From assembly GCA_013152435.1 (NCBI GenBank), contig JAADGJ010000018.1, positions 1-56,115 of the forward strand: DNA of 56,115 nucleotides, written 5' to 3'. Made by a program: the position numbers and the translations under genes. This stretch comes from Chloroflexota bacterium. GTDB taxonomy: Bacteria > Chloroflexota > Anaerolineae > DUEN01. The notes under the pieces are model-generated. The model was not told the DNA's origin. It did not search any database and saw only the letters and a program-made list of their open reading frames with translations. Positions 11,984 to 55,897 of this stretch are shown piece by piece (position 1 is the first letter of the stretch; each line of letters opens with the position of its first letter).

Positions 11984-12070
11984 CAGGGCTTTTCAAAGCT
12001 CAAACACCTCCCCCTGAAATCCTACCGTAGAGATGCCCCTTGCGGGCGCCTGAGGCAGCCACAAGGGGGT
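11984..12070 (+). repeat. R0 element fragment
   Basis: About 87 bases beginning CAGGGCTTTTCAAAG match, on the opposite strand, the block at 24245-24329, including a shared core around CCTGAAATCCTACCGTAG and GGGCGCCTGAGG. In this copy it leads straight into a partial R1 repeat. Confidence 0.7.
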
Positions 12071-23841: not shown

Positions 23842-24329
23842 TCAGGGCTTTTCAAAAATCTAACGGAGACTCCCCCCGGGCACCTCAAACCAGCCTCGCC
23901 TCACTTGGGAAAGGGCGTTGTAGAGACGCAACGGCGTTGCGCCCCTACCAAATACGCCTCTAAGAGTGTGTCTGAGGGTCTCCTTCAACGACCATCTCTA
24001 CAGGGGGAGGCGTGGAGGGGAGATCCCCTCCATGGAAACCTCTTTTTCCTGCCTGCACCTGCCTTTCTCGGCCCCTTCCGAAGGGCCCAGGCCGAGGCCA
24101 GGCAGGTTGAAGGCAGAAGAAGGGCTTTTTCCGGAGGGGCGGAGGAGGGGCGGAGCCCCTCCGGGCCTCCCCACGGCAGAAGCAACGGCATTTCTCAGGC
24201 ACGCTCTAAGGGATCGAGCGTTACTTTAGATCTTGTAGAGGCAGCCCTTGTGGCTACCTCAGGCGCCCACAAGGGGCGCCCCTACGGTAGGATTTCAGGG
24301 GCAGGTGTTTGAGCTTTGAAAAGCCCTGG
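23842..24329. repeat. R0 composite element with an R1 copy inside
   Basis: The left end CAGGGCTTTTCAAA and the right end TTTGAAAAGCCCTG are perfect 14-base inverted repeats 488 bases apart. Inside are small hairpin-like blocks (for example GCAACGGCGTTGC near 23928 and a GGGCGCC-containing block near 24265) and a complete R1 element at 23961-24210. The right 85 bases recur, inverted, at 11984-12070. A third CAGGGCTTTTTCAAAG sits just beyond at 24338. The layout looks like a mobile non-autonomous element into which R1 inserted, or two adjacent elements. Confidence 0.65.
23961..24210 (+). repeat. R1 intergenic repeat, full copy B
   Basis: Full-length copy of 250 bases. Left end TAAGAGTGTGTCTGAG and right end CTCAGGCACGCTCTAAG form imperfect terminal inverted repeats. 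Internal blocks in order: hairpin GTGGAGGGGAGATCCCCTCC, the central ACCTGCC...GGCAGGT arm, then GGAGGGGCGG...GAGCCCCTCCG, and GCAGAAGCAACGGCA near the right end. Confidence 0.85.
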
Positions 24330-33104: not shown

Positions 33105-33366
33105 TTAGAGCGTGCCTGAAAATTCCCGGCAAGGTGTCTGAGGGTTTCCCTCAACGACAAGCTCCACAGGGGGAGGTGTGGAGGGGACCTTCCCTCCACG
33201 GAAAACCCGGCTTTTCCGGCCTGCACCTGCCTCTCTCGGCCCCTTCCGAAGGACTCGGGCCGGGGCCAGGCAGGTCGAAGGCGGGAGAAAGGCTTTTTCC
33301 GGAGGGGCTCCGCCCCTCCGGGCCTCCCCACAGCAGAAGCAACGGCATCTCTCAGACACCCTCTTA
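33105..33366 (+). repeat. R1 intergenic repeat, full copy D
   Basis: 262 bases from TTAGAGCGTGCCTGAAAATT to CAGACACCCTCTTA. Blocks: GGTGTCTGAGGG, hairpin GTGGAGGGGACCTTCCCTCC, the ACCTGCC...GGCAGGT centre enclosing GGCCCC...GGGGCC, hairpin GGAGGGGCTCCGCCCCTCC, and GCAGAAGCAACGGCA. The last three bases, TTA, are the stop codon of the GNAT gene on the other strand. Confidence 0.9.
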
Positions 33367-34263
33367 GAGCTCCTTCTCCATCCACCAGAACACACGGTGT
33401 ATGCGGGCATCGGCCACGCGAGCGTAGAAGGCGATGGGCCCCACCCAGCAGATATCGGCGGTCCGATGGCCCAGCGCCCTCATATCCCGCATACAGTGCC
33501 AGAAGAGCACCCGGCCGATCCCCCGGCCGCGCAGGTCCGGCTCCGTGCCCATGGGCCCGAAGCCGTTCTCGAACATGGTCACGTTGTAAGAGGCGAACGC
33601 GCAGATACGATCCTCGCGCGTGGCCACGAAGGTGGAAATGGGATCATTCTCATAAGAGGAGAGGGCCTCATAATGCCATACGGGGCTCCACCGCTCTTGC
33701 AGCCACGCGCTGAAGGTCTCCCGATCCTCCGGCCGCAATCGTCGAATGGTATATCCCTCCCGGGCCAGGCGCGCCTCCTCCTCACGTGTATCCCAATCGT
33801 GCGCGAGGAGGTCCACCTCCATATCCACCGCCTCGCCGAAGCGGTAGAAACCGTGGCGCTCGAAGAAACAATAGGCCGAGGTGTAGCGCACATCCAGGCC
33901 GGGCCAGAAGTAATTGGGCGCGCTATTGCCCAGCCGCAGCCGGGTGAGCCCATCGGCGCGCAGGCGCCCCTCCAGCTCCCCCAACAACTGAGAGGCGACG
34001 CCCCGCCGGCGATAGGCGGGCTCGACCGTGATCAGGCGCACCCAGGCCATCCTCCCCTCGTCCATCTGACGGACGCCGCCCAGGATCGCCCCCACCAACC
34101 GATCATCCGCCCAGGCAAGCAACTGATAAGCCGGGTCCCGACCGGGCTCCTCCAGAACGCGACGGCGCAACAGGGTCGGCGTGAACACATCCAGGGGAAG
34201 CGTACGTTGACACAAGTCCAGCAAGGCGGGTAAGTCAGCCTCGGCCAATTCACGGATTTCCAT
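33364..34263 (-). CDS. Tandem GNAT-family acetyltransferase
   Basis: The 299-residue product has two GNAT-like halves. The first has the acetyl-CoA loop VEPAYRRRGVASQLL at about 80-95; the second has EPDLRGRGIGRVLFWHC at about 238-254. The order resembles mycothiol-synthase-like double GNATs. The substrate is unknown. Its stop codon TAA lies in the terminal bases of the R1 copy D. ATG 34263 has no strong ribosome binding site. It stands apart from the sugar genes in function. Confidence 0.83.
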   Translation of the reverse strand: MEIRELAEADLPALLDLCQRTLPLDVFTPTLLRRRVLEEPGRDPAYQLLAWADDRLVGAILGGVRQMDEGRMAWVRLITVEPAYRRRGVASQLLGELEGRLRADGLTRLRLGNSAPNYFWPGLDVRYTSAYCFFERHGFYRFGEAVDMEVDLLAHDWDTREEEARLAREGYTIRRLRPEDRETFSAWLQERWSPVWHYEALSSYENDPISTFVATREDRICAFASYNVTMFENGFGPMGTEPDLRGRGIGRVLFWHCMRDMRALGHRTADICWVGPIAFYARVADARIHRVFWWMEKEL

Positions 34264-34346
34264 AAAAGAGGCCCCCTATCATCAAAAGCTTATCCACAGT
34301 CGGCTTCCTTCACACTTCAGAGCCCAGAAGCGCTTCAGCCGATATC

Positions 34347-34364
34347 TTTCAGACACACTCTGAG
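34347..34364 (+). repeat. Isolated R1 right-end sequence
   Basis: CTTTCAGACACACTCTGAG closely matches the R1 right end seen at 35990 (CTTCAGACACACTCTTAC). No other R1 block is nearby, so this is a remnant or a chance match. Confidence 0.4.
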
Positions 34365-34410
34365 CCTCCAGCGGAGTTCCAAGAGATATCAAGAGGATGC
34401 CTCCCTCTTC

Positions 34411-34444
34411 AAAAGGTGGGGGTTCAGCGTGCTGAACCCCCACC
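34411..34444 (-). terminator. Rho-independent terminator of the superoxide reductase gene
   Basis: A long perfect inverted repeat (GGTGGGGGTTCAGC with GCTGAACCCCCACC, 34415-34444), followed on the minus strand by TTTTGAAG. It lies about 70 bases after the stop at 34516. Confidence 0.85.
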
Positions 34445-34515
34445 CTTCCGGAGACATCCCCTACTTCCCCTCAGTCCACCACCATACGGCTCCCCAATCC
34501 ATCATAGAGCTTGAC

Positions 34516-34911
34516 TCAGGCTATCCGGATCTCCTTGCTGCTCTCCCATAATCCGTGGATGTTGCACAGAGCCAAGGCGTACAGGGTGCCGGGCTTGGTC
34601 ACCTTCAATGTAACCGTCACCGCGTGGTGCGTGTACACCGGGCCCTGGTTGGGGCCAGCCACCGCCTCACCATGAGCGGTGAACTCGAAATGCCCCACCT
34701 GATGGGTAAACGGCTCCCCCTCCGGGTGGAAGTAAAGGGAGATCCAACTGATATGATGTTCCGTGGTGTTGGGATGTCCCACCTCCTTCCCCAGGCTGAC
34801 CGTCACCTGGAACATCTCGTCGGCCTTCACCTCGTCCGGGCACTCGATGACCGGCACGTGTTTTTCCTTCTTCCAATCAGCTTCCTGAATGCGTTCGCTC
34901 AGCTTGGTCAT
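34516..34911 (-). CDS. Superoxide reductase (neelaredoxin/class II desulfoferrodoxin)
   Basis: SOR reduces superoxide to hydrogen peroxide without making oxygen, typical of anaerobic and microaerophilic prokaryotes. The 131-residue protein has EKHVPVIECP (Glu and His ligands of the active site), GHPNTTEHHISWI (His ligands) and ALCNIHGLWE (Cys and His), the full set for the Fe(His)4Cys site. The N-terminal rubredoxin-like Fe domain of class I is absent. GGAGGAG precedes ATG 34911, and a terminator follows, so it is likely expressed alone. Confidence 0.93.
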   Translation of the reverse strand: MTKLSERIQEADWKKEKHVPVIECPDEVKADEMFQVTVSLGKEVGHPNTTEHHISWISLYFHPEGEPFTHQVGHFEFTAHGEAVAGPNQGPVYTHHAVTVTLKVTKPGTLYALALCNIHGLWESSKEIRIA

Positions 34912-34993
34912 GGCTTCTCCTCCTTGCCTTATACCGGCGTGAAAATCGACGACCTCCCAGAGAGCCGACGCCCTTTGGGAGGGAACAGCCCCT

Positions 34994-35881
34994 TTACCTT
35001 CGATCCTCCGCCCTGACGAAGGGCGGCCTCACCTCAAGGGATGTCAGCAGGCCATAGCAACGGGGCTTCCGAAACGCGTTCCCCCACGTCTCACGCTCCC
35101 GATACGCCCGGATCCGATCCATATGGAAGACGGCCAGGTAGACGCTCTCCTCCTCGCCCGCCTCGATCACCAGGGTATCCCTCGCGTTCCCCCTCTCGTC
35201 GAAGGCGATGGGATCAAAGGCGATGGAGTGTCCGTTGTTCTGCGGCGCGGCATAGTTGGTCATCGCCACCCCTACCATGTTCTCAAAGGCCCTCGCCCTG
35301 AACTGGCCGATGCGATGCGCCTCCAGCTCGCAGGCGTTGGGCGTCAGGATGATCTCCGCCCCCTTCAACATCAGAATGCGAGCGCTCTCCGGGAACTCCC
35401 GATCGTAGCAGATCATGGCCCCCACCCTGACCGTCCCTTCCTCCGTCTCCAGATCGCACACGTAGAAATCGTCTCCAGGGGTCAGGGCGATCTCCCGATC
35501 GAAATCGCAGGTATGCACCTTGGCGTACGTCATCACGACCTCGCCGCGTCGGTCGATCAGGGAAACGGAGTTACGCGGCGCGCCCTCCCATCTCTCCAGA
35601 TAGGTCAGGGCGATGGCCATCCCCAGCTCCTTCGCCAGCGCCCTGAAGTGCATGACGAAGGCATCATCCCGGCCGATCGCCTGCGCCCGCCACTCCTCCT
35701 GCGCGCCCGGCCGACCCGGATCGTAAAAGGTGTACCCGATGTTCCACATCTCCGGGAAGAGCGCGAGGTCCGCTCCCAACTCCCTCGCACGCCGGCAGAA
35801 CGCCTCCCCCTTGGCGAGGTTCGCCTCCTGATCGTCCCCACAGGCTACCATCTGCAACAGAGCGATCCGGAACAGGCTCAT
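34994..35881 (-). CDS. Carbon-nitrogen hydrolase (nitrilase superfamily)
   Basis: The 295-residue protein has the catalytic triad: Glu in LALFPEMWN, Lys in YAKVHTCDFD and Cys in AMICYDREFPES. These enzymes cleave amides, carbamoyl groups or nitriles; the N-carbamoyl or aliphatic amidase branch is likely, but the substrate cannot be assigned. It lies between the SOR gene and an R1 repeat, upstream of which is the glycosyltransferase gene. No strong ribosome site precedes ATG 35881; R1 copy E sits directly upstream. Confidence 0.87.
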   Translation of the reverse strand: MSLFRIALLQMVACGDDQEANLAKGEAFCRRARELGADLALFPEMWNIGYTFYDPGRPGAQEEWRAQAIGRDDAFVMHFRALAKELGMAIALTYLERWEGAPRNSVSLIDRRGEVVMTYAKVHTCDFDREIALTPGDDFYVCDLETEEGTVRVGAMICYDREFPESARILMLKGAEIILTPNACELEAHRIGQFRARAFENMVGVAMTNYAAPQNNGHSIAFDPIAFDERGNARDTLVIEAGEEESVYLAVFHMDRIRAYRERETWGNAFRKPRCYGLLTSLEVRPPFVRAEDRR

Positions 35882-35894
35882 AGGCCCTCTTTCC

Positions 35895-36004
35895 CCTCGA
35901 GGAGGGATCCCTTTCCACAGAAGCCCTGCTTTCCCGGCCCTTCTCGCAGAGACTCAGGCCGAGGCCAGGCAGATCAGGGGCGGGATTCTTCAGACACACT
36001 CTTA
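35895..36004 (+). repeat. R1 intergenic repeat, shortened copy E
   Basis: About 110 bases with CTTTCCACAGAAGCCCTGCT, TTCCCGGCCCTTCTCGCAGA, GGCCGAGGCCAGGCAGAT and the right end TTCAGACACACTCTTA. The right hairpin block is deleted. The terminal TTA is the stop codon of the convergent glycosyltransferase gene. Confidence 0.75.
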
Positions 36005-37069
36005 CAGAAACGGGATCGGGCGGGAGAGCGGCGGGGGCGTATACGCCTCCCGGTAGTACGCGGCCACCCGGCGCAGGACCGCATCGCGTATCGCGCGCAA
36101 TTCCTCCGCGGCCGGGCCCAACGTCATCATCCGGCTGGCGGCCACGTGATTGTCCAGGATGCCCTGGGCCACGTCGATGGGCACATCCAGCCGGCAGAAG
36201 ATCCAGGCGATCACCCCGCTATACCAGCGCAGGCGCGCCTCCTCCCCAGCGCGGAAGGTGGATGTGGGCTGGCCGTCGAACGTCATGCGCCGCACCTCGC
36301 CCAGCGTGGCGCCGCCCAACACGCCGTGGATGATGGAGATCGTCTCCGCGCCGCATCGCCAGAACTCGTCCGCCCCCAGGCAACGCATCTCCGCGCCCGG
36401 GTCGGCGAAGATGACCTGTGCGGCGGCGCGGGTGTACAGCTTGTAGCCGGAGTTGAAGTCGGGCACGTCCTCCGGGCTCGCACAGAAGCGCAGATCCAAC
36501 ACGCGACCCTGCCGCGCCAGGTGATAGCGCAGAGCATCCAACAACACCCGATCCTGCAACAACTCCAGCTCACCGCGCAGCCAACCCATCGGTCGATGCA
36601 GGCTGCCCCGCCGCCCGATCACCAGCACGCGATCGTTGGCCGTCTCCCGGGCGATATGGACCGCCGCCCGCGCCAGATTGGGCAGATCGTTGATGAAGTG
36701 ATCGGCGTCAGCATCGCGCACGCACAGCAGGTCGGCGTCCGGCCTCTCGCTCAGCAGCCAGCGCATCCCCTGTGTGACCGCGTGCTCCTTGCCGCGATTC
36801 TCGTCCTCTATGATCAGCGCCGGGGCGACGCCCTCCCGCCGCAGGAGCCGATCCCTCTCGACCCGGGCCACCCGGGCGATACGCGGGCTTCCGTCCACCA
36901 CCAGCACGATCTGATCCCAGGGCATGAACAGCCCGCAGTCGGCCAGGGTCAAACGCAGCAGATCGGCGATGGCCTCATCGGACTCCTGGGGGTTATACCA
37001 GACCGGCACCACCATCCCCAGCCGGGGATGCAGGTCGGCGATGGTGGCGTAGTGCTCGTGAGTGCTCAC
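36002..37069 (-). CDS. GT-A fold glycosyltransferase-like protein
   Basis: The 355-residue product begins at GTG 37069, which overlaps the ROK gene stop (GTGA). It has MVVPVWYNPQESDEAI, QIVLVVDGSPRIA, ENRGKEHAVTQGMRWLL and VRDADADHFIND with a DxD-type metal site, all in GT-A order; there is no membrane helix. It would transfer a sugar from a nucleotide donor inside the cell. The frame is open far upstream of 37069 but only as the shadow of ROK. The stop codon lies in R1 copy E. Confidence 0.75.
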   Translation of the reverse strand: MSTHEHYATIADLHPRLGMVVPVWYNPQESDEAIADLLRLTLADCGLFMPWDQIVLVVDGSPRIARVARVERDRLLRREGVAPALIIEDENRGKEHAVTQGMRWLLSERPDADLLCVRDADADHFINDLPNLARAAVHIARETANDRVLVIGRRGSLHRPMGWLRGELELLQDRVLLDALRYHLARQGRVLDLRFCASPEDVPDFNSGYKLYTRAAAQVIFADPGAEMRCLGADEFWRCGAETISIIHGVLGGATLGEVRRMTFDGQPTSTFRAGEEARLRWYSGVIAWIFCRLDVPIDVAQGILDNHVAASRMMTLGPAAEELRAIRDAVLRRVAAYYREAYTPPPLSRPIPFL

Positions 37070-38004
37070 GCCGCGCCCCTCTCCGCTGCCAGTCTCAGCC
37101 GGGCCAGCACGCCCGCACCGATCACGCCCGCCTGCGGCCCCAAAGCGGCCTTCCAGACCGGCGTCGATCGAGCCGTGGGCAACGCGTGCCGGGCGATGCA
37201 GGAGCGAATGGCCTGGAAAAACGGCTCGCCGGCCTCGGCCACCCCTCCGCCGATGATGATCGCGTCCGGCGCCATCACGTTCACCAGCGAGGTCAACGCG
37301 AACCCCAACCAGCGGCCGGCCTCCTGCACGGCGAAGCGCGCCAGCTGATCCCCAGCCCGCATCGCCTCCACCACCTCCCGTCCTGTGGGAGCGCTGGGTA
37401 GCCCGCGCAGGCGGCGGTAATGCTCGGCGATGGCTGGACCCGAGGCGTACTGTTCCACACAGCCGCGGTCGCCGCAGGTGCACGGCCGGCCGTCCCGGAC
37501 CACTTTGACATGCCCTACCGCGCCGGCCAGCCCGGCGCGGCCCGGGTGCAAACGCCCGTTCAGCACCCAGCCGCCGCCGATCCCGGTGCCCACCGCCACA
37601 TACAGCCCGTTCCGCACCCCCCGGCCGGCACCGTACGTCGCCTCGCCCAGCGCCATGGCGTGCACATCGTTGTCCATCCAGACGGGCACCCCCAGCGCCG
37701 CCCCCAACTCCCGGCGAAGGGGCACGCCGGTCCAGCCGGGGATCAGATCCGTGGCATAGACGATCTCCCCGGTGCCCGGATCCACCTGGCCGCCCGTGCC
37801 CACGCCGATCGCCGCCGGGGGACGCTCCGCCGCGGCCGCCACCTCTCGCGCCAGTTGCACGACCCGACGCAACACGGCCTCGCTTCCCTCGTGCACCGCC
37901 GTGGGAACGGAGCGTGCATGGTACAGTGTGCCATCCGGGGCGACCATCGCGGCGGCGATCTTGGTCCCGCCGATATCGATCCCCAACGTCCACGCCTCTT
38001 CCAT
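37066..38004 (-). CDS. ROK-family sugar kinase (glucokinase-like)
   Basis: The 312-residue protein has the phosphate loop LGIDIGGTKIAAAMV, the catalytic Asp in VWMDNDVHAMALGE, VAVGTGIGGGWVLNG and the ROK zinc site CTCGDRGCVE. It phosphorylates a hexose, glucose or N-acetyl-sugar, with ATP. No DNA-binding domain is present, so it is a kinase and not a ROK repressor. GGAGG precedes ATG 38004. R1 copy F separates it from the upstream gene at 38244, and the glycosyltransferase gene overlaps its end. Confidence 0.9.
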   Translation of the reverse strand: MEEAWTLGIDIGGTKIAAAMVAPDGTLYHARSVPTAVHEGSEAVLRRVVQLAREVAAAAERPPAAIGVGTGGQVDPGTGEIVYATDLIPGWTGVPLRRELGAALGVPVWMDNDVHAMALGEATYGAGRGVRNGLYVAVGTGIGGGWVLNGRLHPGRAGLAGAVGHVKVVRDGRPCTCGDRGCVEQYASGPAIAEHYRRLRGLPSAPTGREVVEAMRAGDQLARFAVQEAGRWLGFALTSLVNVMAPDAIIIGGGVAEAGEPFFQAIRSCIARHALPTARSTPVWKAALGPQAGVIGAGVLARLRLAAERGAA

Positions 38005-38030
38005 ACCGCCTCCTGTGCGACGGGCACGCC

Positions 38031-38246
38031 ACCCTCAATCACAAGCCCCACAGGGGGATATGGGGGAACCCCCCTCCACGGAAAATACCGCTTTCCCGGC
38101 CTGCACCTGCTTCTCTCGGCCCCTTCCGCAAGGGTCTGGGCCGGGCCCCGGCAGGTCAAGGGCGGAAGAAAATTCTTTCTGGAGGAGCAAGGCCCCTCCA
38201 GGCCTCCCCATAACAGGAGCAACAGGACTTCTCAGGCACGCTCTTA
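38031..38246 (+). repeat. R1 intergenic repeat, copy F
   Basis: About 216 bases. The left end is truncated (begins near CTCAATCACAAGCCCCACAG). It keeps the CCCTCCACGGAAAA block, the ACCTGC...GGCAGGT centre, TTTCTGGAGGAGCAAGGCCC and the intact right end CTCAGGCACGCTCTTA. The terminal TTA is the stop codon of the gene at 38244. Confidence 0.85.
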
Positions 38247-38990
38247 GAAGGGCGGCTCCTTATGCAGTTCCTCGATCAACTGCAAGGCGGCCTCAATCTG
38301 CTCCGCCGTCCCCTGGAGCAGCAGGCGCACGGCCCCCTCGGCACCGAAGATGCCGCCGGAGCCGACATGACGAACCTGAACGCCGCAGAGCAGGTGGAAC
38401 GCCTCGATCTCGGTGATGATCTCACCGGTGATGGGGAAAAGCGGATGGACGTGATTGGCCGCCTCCTCGCCCTGTCCCAACACGCGCGCCGTCTCCAGGA
38501 TATCATGCGTCACCAACTTCTCCAGGCCCACCGGGATCACCAGCGTAACCCGCCGTCCGATGATCGGTCCCAACGCGCCCCCCACGGTTCCACCGTTGGG
38601 GTCCCCGATGCACACCCCGGCCACCTTCTTCTCGTAATTGAGCGCGTTGGCCCCCTTGATGAAGACATCGCCGGGGCCCATCTGGCGCGCCGCCTCAAAG
38701 CGATTCATCCCCTGCACCGGCTGCCCGTCATGCAGGATCACATCGGGCAGGTTCTTGGGCGCCAGGCGGGTCTTGCTGTCAAAGCCCGGCGGGACCACAT
38801 GCCCGGTCACGTACGCATACCGGTCGATGGGCTTCCCCAGGACCTCCTCGACGACGTAGCCATCCGTGGTACCGGTCGAGATGACCATCCACCCCTGTCG
38901 TCGGGCGCGCTGCACGGCGGGATGAGCTGCTACCCCCTTGGCGATCAGACGTTTCGACTGCGAGACGGTGAGAACGACCTCAGCTAGCAT
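38244..38990 (-). CDS. Conserved-looking protein of unknown function
   Basis: The 248-residue product was not recognised. Notable segments are a start SQSKRLIAKGVAAHPAVQRA, GWMVISTGTTDGYVVEEVLGK, the Gly-rich IGDPNGGTVGGALGPIIGRR and a C-terminal HVGSGGIFGAEGAVRLLLQG. The balance of Gly, Val and Ala suggests a soluble alpha/beta enzyme; a ligand-binding Gly loop at 125-145 is possible. AGGTG lies about eight bases before ATG 38990. It sits in a sugar-utilisation set between the ROK kinase and the esterase and is therefore likely to act there. Its stop lies in R1 copy F. Confidence 0.7.
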   Translation of the reverse strand: MLAEVVLTVSQSKRLIAKGVAAHPAVQRARRQGWMVISTGTTDGYVVEEVLGKPIDRYAYVTGHVVPPGFDSKTRLAPKNLPDVILHDGQPVQGMNRFEAARQMGPGDVFIKGANALNYEKKVAGVCIGDPNGGTVGGALGPIIGRRVTLVIPVGLEKLVTHDILETARVLGQGEEAANHVHPLFPITGEIITEIEAFHLLCGVQVRHVGSGGIFGAEGAVRLLLQGTAEQIEAALQLIEELHKEPPF

Positions 38991-54427: not shown

Positions 54428-55732
54428 ATGCCTTTCGATCCCGTCCTCCGCGAGAGATTCGATCATATCCCCCTTCCGGTGATGTACCCAGCGCGAGTGC
54501 AATTCCCGGCACCCAGAGTGCAAGACCTGGAGGGAGCGGTTCGCGAGGCGCTGCGGACCGGAGGCATCCTGGATCGAGTGCAGCCTGGCATGCGAGTGGC
54601 CATCGGAGCCGGCAGCCGGGGAGTAGCCCGACTTCCAGAGATCGTCCGCGCCGTGGTGGAGGCCGTGCGAGCCGCCGGCGCGGAGCCGTTTGTTATCCCG
54701 GCCATGGGCAGCCACGGCGGCGCCACGGCCGAGGGACAACGGGAGGTGCTCGCCAGCCTGGGCGTGACCGAGGCGACCGTTCAGGCGCCCATCGTGTCCA
54801 GCATGGAGGTCGTGGAGCTGGGACGGCTCTCCGATGATGTGCCGGTGTGCATGGATCGCAACGCATACGAGGCCGATGGCACCATCTTGATCAACCGCAT
54901 CAAGCCACACACCGACTTCCGTGGCCCCATCGAGAGCGGGCTGGCCAAGATGTGCGTCATCGGATTGGGCAAGCGACGCACCGCCGAGGCGATCCACGCG
55001 TACGGTCCCAACGGCCTGCGCGATCTGATCCCGCGGGCCGCGCCCATCGTCGTGGAACGCGGCCGCGTCCTCGGCGGCATCGCCACCGTCGAGAACGCCT
55101 ACCATGATGTGGCCGACGTCGTAGGCGTCCCGCCCGACGAGATCGGTGGATCGATCGAGCAGGCACTCCTGATGCGAGCCTGGGAGCTGATGCCCTCTCT
55201 GCCATTCGATCACCTGGATGTGCTCGTGATCGACGAGATGGGGAAGGACATCAGCGGGACGGGTATGGATACCAACATCATCGGCCGGATGTTGCTGCCG
55301 GGCGTGCCCGAGCCCGACCGCCCGCAGGTCAACGTCATCACCCTGCTGGGGCTCACCGAGGCGACGCACGGGAACGCGGTGGGTTACGGCCTGGCCGACG
55401 TGATCACCGAGCGATGCCTGAACCAGATCGACTGGGAGATCACGCGCGTGAACGCGCTGACGGCGGGCATCCTGAGCGCGTGGCGCGGCAAGCTCCCCTG
55501 GGTCGCCCAGGACGATGCCGCGGCTATCCGGCTGGCGCTTCGGTTCTGCGGCCGCCCGGATCCCGAAAACGCCCAGATGATGCGCATCCGGAACACGTTA
55601 GCCCTCGATTATGTCTGGATCTCCGAGGCGTTGGTGGAGGCGGCCCGGGAGATGGACAACGTGACCGTGGAGGAAGCGCCGGCGAAGTGGGCCTTCGACG
55701 CGACAGGGCGCCTGCAGCCGTTGGCCCCGTGA
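54428..55732 (+). CDS. Lactate racemase-like (LarA/DUF2088 family) protein
   Basis: The 434-residue protein has AIGAGSRGVARLPEIV, VIPAMGSHGGATAEGQ, ILINRIKPHTDF and SGLAKMCVIGLGKRR, matching the N-terminal LarA-like domain. The family contains nickel-pincer hydroxyacid racemases; this member could racemise or epimerise a sugar acid. Cofactor-loading lar genes are not in view. AAGGAG precedes the ATG; R1 copy G begins within two bases of the TGA stop. Confidence 0.83.
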   Translation: MPFDPVLRERFDHIPLPVMYPARVQFPAPRVQDLEGAVREALRTGGILDRVQPGMRVAIGAGSRGVARLPEIVRAVVEAVRAAGAEPFVIPAMGSHGGATAEGQREVLASLGVTEATVQAPIVSSMEVVELGRLSDDVPVCMDRNAYEADGTILINRIKPHTDFRGPIESGLAKMCVIGLGKRRTAEAIHAYGPNGLRDLIPRAAPIVVERGRVLGGIATVENAYHDVADVVGVPPDEIGGSIEQALLMRAWELMPSLPFDHLDVLVIDEMGKDISGTGMDTNIIGRMLLPGVPEPDRPQVNVITLLGLTEATHGNAVGYGLADVITERCLNQIDWEITRVNALTAGILSAWRGKLPWVAQDDAAAIRLALRFCGRPDPENAQMMRIRNTLALDYVWISEALVEAAREMDNVTVEEAPAKWAFDATGRLQPLAP

Positions 55733-55897
55733 TAGTGCCGTTGCTTCTGCTGTGGGGAGGCCTGGAGGGGCGAAGCCCCTCCGGAAAAAGCGAGGTTTCC
55801 GTGGAGGGAAGGCCCCCTCCACCCCCCTCCTTGTGGAGCTGGTAGCTAAGGGAGACCCGCAGACACCTTGCCGGTAAATTTTCAAACACGCTCTCAG
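55733..55897 (-). repeat. R1 intergenic repeat, copy G with centre deleted
   Basis: 165 bases in minus orientation. The AGCGTGTTTGAAAATTTACC end, GGTGTCTGCGGGTCTCCC, the GTGGAGGG hairpin and the GGAGGGGCTTCGCCCCTCC hairpin are all there, but the ACCTGCC...GGCAGGT centre is missing exactly between TTTCC blocks. The right end begins immediately after the LarA-like stop. Confidence 0.85.

Follow-up and report, generated by a model that had tools for sequence, protein, structure and literature searches.

The window analysed here, a stretch of 56,115 nucleotides from a Chloroflexota bacterium, carries copies of a dispersed repeat, R1, and three of them (copies D, E and F) stop exactly where a gene on the minus strand stops (Table 1). 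A hexamer-trained gene caller called the three adjoining genes independently and placed their ends at the same positions. As the initial annotation had stated, the TTA at the right end of each of these copies is the in-frame TAA stop codon of the minus-strand gene, and both the table of open reading frames and the sequence confirm it. Four copies had been said to behave in this way. This is true of three, among which D alone is complete while E and F keep the right end only; it is not true of copy G, whose right end had been placed next to the stop codon of a LarA-like gene. That gene has a TGA of its own and, since the right TIR of copy G is missing, the junction marks the edge of a deletion rather than an end of the element. 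The description of the genes as convergent holds only loosely: copies E and F each stand between two minus-strand genes in tandem.

Table 1. R1 copies in the window, their flanking triplets and the adjoining genes
Feature	Positions	Strand	Description
Copy B	23961-24209		Complete; TAA duplicated on both sides, away from a stop codon
Copy D, left target-site duplication	33105-33107		TTA
Copy D	33108-33363	+	Complete MITE, 256 bp between duplications; profile 1-262, 280 bits; TIRs GAGCGTGCCTGA / TCAGACACCCTC
Copy D, right target-site duplication	33364-33366		TTA, the TAA stop of the minus-strand GNAT gene
GNAT-family acetyltransferase gene	33364-34248	-	C-terminus ...WWMEKEL*
Lone element end	34349-34363	+	TCAGACACACTC with TGA; no recognised interior; upstream of the GNAT gene
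Copy E	35898-36001	+	Left-truncated; right end TCAGACACACTC alone intact
Copy E, right triplet	36002-36004		TTA, the TAA stop of gene 36002-37069
Gene 36002-37069	36002-37069	-	Glycosyltransferase in the initial annotation; no Pfam match; C-terminus ...PIPFL*
Copy F	38030-38243	+	Left-truncated; right end TCAGGCACGCTC intact
Copy F, right triplet	38244-38246		TTA, the TAA stop of gene 38244-38990
Gene 38244-38990	38244-38990	-	Protein of unknown function; no Pfam match; C-terminus ...HKEPPF*
LarA-like gene	54428-55732		Own TGA stop (55730-55732), then TAG, then copy G interior
Copy G	55734-55896	-	Right TIR lost; left end intact at 55893 with TCA

Other repeats are found close to these features. 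A hairpin, GGGGTTCAGCRTGCTGAACCCC, lies upstream of the GNAT gene (window 34415-34447) and, in a sister genome, just downstream of the GNAT orthologue (L147); it seems to be a further dispersed repeat. At 11984-12067 and 24245-24328 of the window, R1 copies border on a second repeat (84 nt, 93% inverted), which suggests nested or composite repeats.

Ends and target site of R1

R1 is a multi-copy element of ~260 bp (about 240-263 bp) without a transposase gene, and the gene caller gave no coding gene in its interior. When full-length copies were aligned (~0.8 Mb), the TIR GAGYGTGTCTGA was found at both ends, the right end being the inverse of the left, and outside the ends stood matching triplets: TTA/TTA, TCA/TCA, TAA/TAA or TGA/TGA. 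The genome holds 221 exact TIR cores and none of the reversed pattern. R1 therefore shows the features that define a MITE, namely short length, lack of a transposase gene, TIRs, high copy number, a target-site duplication and an empty site, and it gave no match in an Rfam search. It is a non-autonomous mini-transposon.

Paired copies and insertion events were counted in 1.92 Mb (39% of the genome), in stretches picked around known copies. Identical TNA triplets flank 46 of the 95 paired copies, and the base beyond the triplet is C in 72% on one side and G in 72% on the other. The preferred target of R1 is C|TNA|G, of which the 3 bp TNA are duplicated, and the TTA beside R1 is duplicated host DNA and not element sequence. 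The earlier proposal of insertion at TTA/TAA or a stop-codon-like target was in essence correct, though narrower than this rule; the idea that the element supplies the stop codon has to be abandoned, as the TTA belongs to the host. A or T is the middle base in 21 of the 46 duplications, versus 22-25% of intergenic sites, and the surplus of TAA at stop insertions fits this general preference. Two observations were counted against a model of TNA duplication: about half of the paired copies are without identical triplets, for which decay is the likely cause, and the insertion at locus L105 is flanked by TAG/TAG, which is not TNA.

A second transposon family seems to use the same target in this genome. 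An IS701-family element (L145:885-2336, contig C12, ~130.6-132.0 kb) sits exactly where TAA is duplicated next to an R1 copy and has TAA on both sides, in the form C|TAA|G.

Based on these results, we propose that R1 is an IS5-family, IS1031-like MITE and that its landings on stop codons are a by-product of the C|TNA|G target, a reading to which we give a probability of roughly 0.92. A transposase, presumably supplied in trans, would recognise the GAGYGTGTCTGA ends and make cuts staggered by 3 bp at C|TNA|G, TNA being duplicated on repair. As TAA and TGA both fit TNA, a hit on such a stop would duplicate the codon; one copy would stay in frame and the protein would remain intact. Insertions inside genes would be lost by selection, and R1 copies would thus build up in intergenic DNA and on stops, in proportion to the TNA sites.

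Stop codons across the genome

The exact coincidence of R1 edges and stop codons is real, and it is seen genome-wide: 20 gene stops lie at offset 0 from an R1 junction and none at offsets -1 to -6, the mean for the other offsets between -60 and +60 being ~0.36. R1 has no special stop-codon targeting, however, since about one copy in ten is on a stop, which is near chance given the TNA rule. Outside coding sequence and elements, stops account for 7.4, 9.5 and 11.7% of TNA sites with 0, 1 and 2 of the C..G flanking bases matched, and the share expected for the observed mix of flanks is 10.5%. The observed share of R1 insertions is ~10-14%: stops take 7 of the 46 pairs with a duplication (p = 0.33), 15 of the 109 TNA events (p = 0.20) and, when every event is counted, 20 of 204. 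The right end, which the initial annotation had singled out, is not special, stops being found at 11 right ends and 8 left ends. In a genome of another family (G015), a MITE with the same TIR as R1 and an unrelated interior has TNA at 20 of 20 exact ends, 2 of which are at the stops of long ORFs.

A different explanation would be that the transposase, or selection, favours stop codons, or that R1 is kept as a terminator or stabiliser of mRNA 3' ends. The point estimates of 14-15% at stops, compared with 10.5%, lean in that direction, but the excess is not significant (p 0.2-0.33) and stops are met by both ends of the element. R1 does fold strongly on both strands (z -6.0 and -4.7), as would suit such a function, and strong folding is expected of a palindromic MITE. 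An intrinsic terminator consists of a GC-rich hairpin and a T-run, and no T-runs follow the strong R1 hairpins; the terminator-like sites of the region are few, weak matches to the consensus, with mixed tails and no T-run. The suggested role as a terminator or at mRNA 3' ends is therefore unsupported. As for gene context, convergent gaps hold slightly more copies than their TNA sites would predict (19 of 153 versus 8% of TNA sites), a point in favour of this explanation; overall, the distribution over tandem, convergent and divergent gaps is nearly proportional to TNA sites, with about two thirds of the copies between tandem genes, as for TNA sites. Taken together, we consider a preference for stops, or a function at them, to be improbable, and we judge R1 insertions to be neutral. 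There is an equally small chance that copies on stops are preferentially retained, the folded element making a useful 3' end, in which case stop codons would be a mildly adaptive niche and landings on them no by-product of TNA.

If landings on stops are indeed a by-product of the target, a 3-bp target rule can by itself make a mobile element neutral on a stop codon. The TNA rule then provides a simple null model for mobile elements lying exactly at gene ends, and it argues for caution in reading function into junctions between elements and gene ends.

Orthologous loci without the element

It could also be supposed, as the initial annotation did in part, that insertion truncated the genes, the element giving a new stop and the C-termini being trimmed. 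The way in which the stop codon exactly adjoins the element is in keeping with this idea, but orthologous loci without the element, the comparison that had been recommended, speak against it. Among the relatives, a genome of the same genus (G001) contains a single close copy of R1 and a genome of the same family (G003) has short weak matches only. The C-terminus of the GNAT protein is the same here, in G001 and in G003, both of which are without the element at this locus; that of the 36002-37069 protein is shared with G003; and that of the 38244-38990 protein is shared with G001, the G003 protein being of equal length. The C-termini of the three window genes are thus unchanged, and most of the other stop-codon loci tested have the same end residue in relatives. 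One exception is L090, whose protein is shorter by a single residue than its counterparts in the two relatives, and truncation could hold for such single loci. At L105, the flanks joined without R1 align with G001 over 805 columns at 86% identity, continuously through the junction (...CCCGGCCTAGGGGATAC... here, ...CCCGGCCTAAGGGGATAC... in G001). G001 presents here a clean empty site for L105 at a stop codon, with the stop in the same position. Truncation is refuted for the window genes and, as a general explanation, is very improbable. The initial annotation had named two outcomes that would speak against its proposal: the first, no preference for stops, is what we find once the availability of TNA is allowed for; the second, unrelated C-termini in orthologues, was not seen.

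One feature of these loci was counted against the by-product model. The stop codon at copies D, E and F is TAA here and TAG or TGA in relatives, and a change of stop codon before insertion must therefore be assumed. Such a change is plausible in view of the turnover in control genes, where the stop codon changed in 4 of 13 and was the same in 9 of 13. The insertion sites have the same stop codon in 3 of 8 cases, compared with 9 of 13 in controls, a sample too small to call the two different. As control genes also change their stops, the differences at D, E and F are no special sign, within the limits of this small sample.

The window exaggerates the pattern, 3 of its ~6 insertions being on stops versus a tenth genome-wide, but that the coincidence is mere chance, an artefact of reading many repeats in one window, can be dismissed almost entirely, as it is refuted by the offset profile.

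Family of R1 and source of its transposase

We infer, with good support, that R1 belongs to the IS1031 group of the IS5 family. Elements of this group are reported to favour TNA and to generate 3-bp repeats (PMC12016507), and the 3-bp direct repeat TNA is what we find at R1. Within the IS5/IS1031 group, ISLrh is an example that resembles R1 in its 3-bp TNA duplication, and its end, GAACCTGTCTAGTATCT, is similar to GAGCGTGTCTGAAAA of R1 (PMC12016507). Unlike the members of the group, R1 is ~260 bp long and has no transposase, and no matching autonomous partner was found in its genome. Two other systems can be compared. RUP of Streptococcus pneumoniae is, like R1, a short non-coding MITE present in many copies; it too has IS-like ends, is believed to be moved in trans and uses a short target that may fall in stop codons. 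It differs from R1 in its IS630-type ends, TA target, length and sequence (PMC2229807). The NuwaII group of eukaryotic PIF/Harbinger-like transposons, distant relatives of IS5, has the same C|TNA|G target and 3-bp duplication (PMC4482050), a likeness to R1 that concerns the target and not a comparison of sequences. In the open-access literature, we found no paper containing the R1 TIR sequence and no description of IS5-type MITEs on stop codons.

Searches of the genome itself with PF01609, PF13340 and PF13359 gave no IS with R1 ends, a point against the proposed reading; they gave one IS5_3 element and one IS701 element, each with another TIR. The long TIR pairs in the 1.92 Mb examined, and in the loci of relatives, enclose no transposase. 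The genome's IS5_3 transposase, the single one found (L144, contig C67, 13.1-13.8 kb), has the TIR GAGCCTGTTATGCACTTT and CTAG-like flanks.

Beyond this genome, 13 of the 298 genomes of the class carry the R1 end together with TNA, on MITEs whose interiors differ, and other MITEs of the class have TNA+GAGCGTGTCTGAAAA in common. The R1 end is also found in many phyla, and it is of some interest that MITEs with unlike interiors, from several phyla, share one 15-nt end and one target rule. In a Desulfobacteraceae MAG (L262), the start of an ORF with a match to the IS5_3 transposase model lies ~95 bp inside R1's 15-nt end, one end of the element having been read. Finally, the 19-mer CTNAGAGCGTGTCTGAAAA is present in Lachnospiraceae, Verrucomicrobia, Methanosarcina, Leptospiraceae and others (L207-L286); where partner ends were found, most of them lie at a distance of 110-500 bp, in many cases with TNA duplications, and the sequences between the ends are different.
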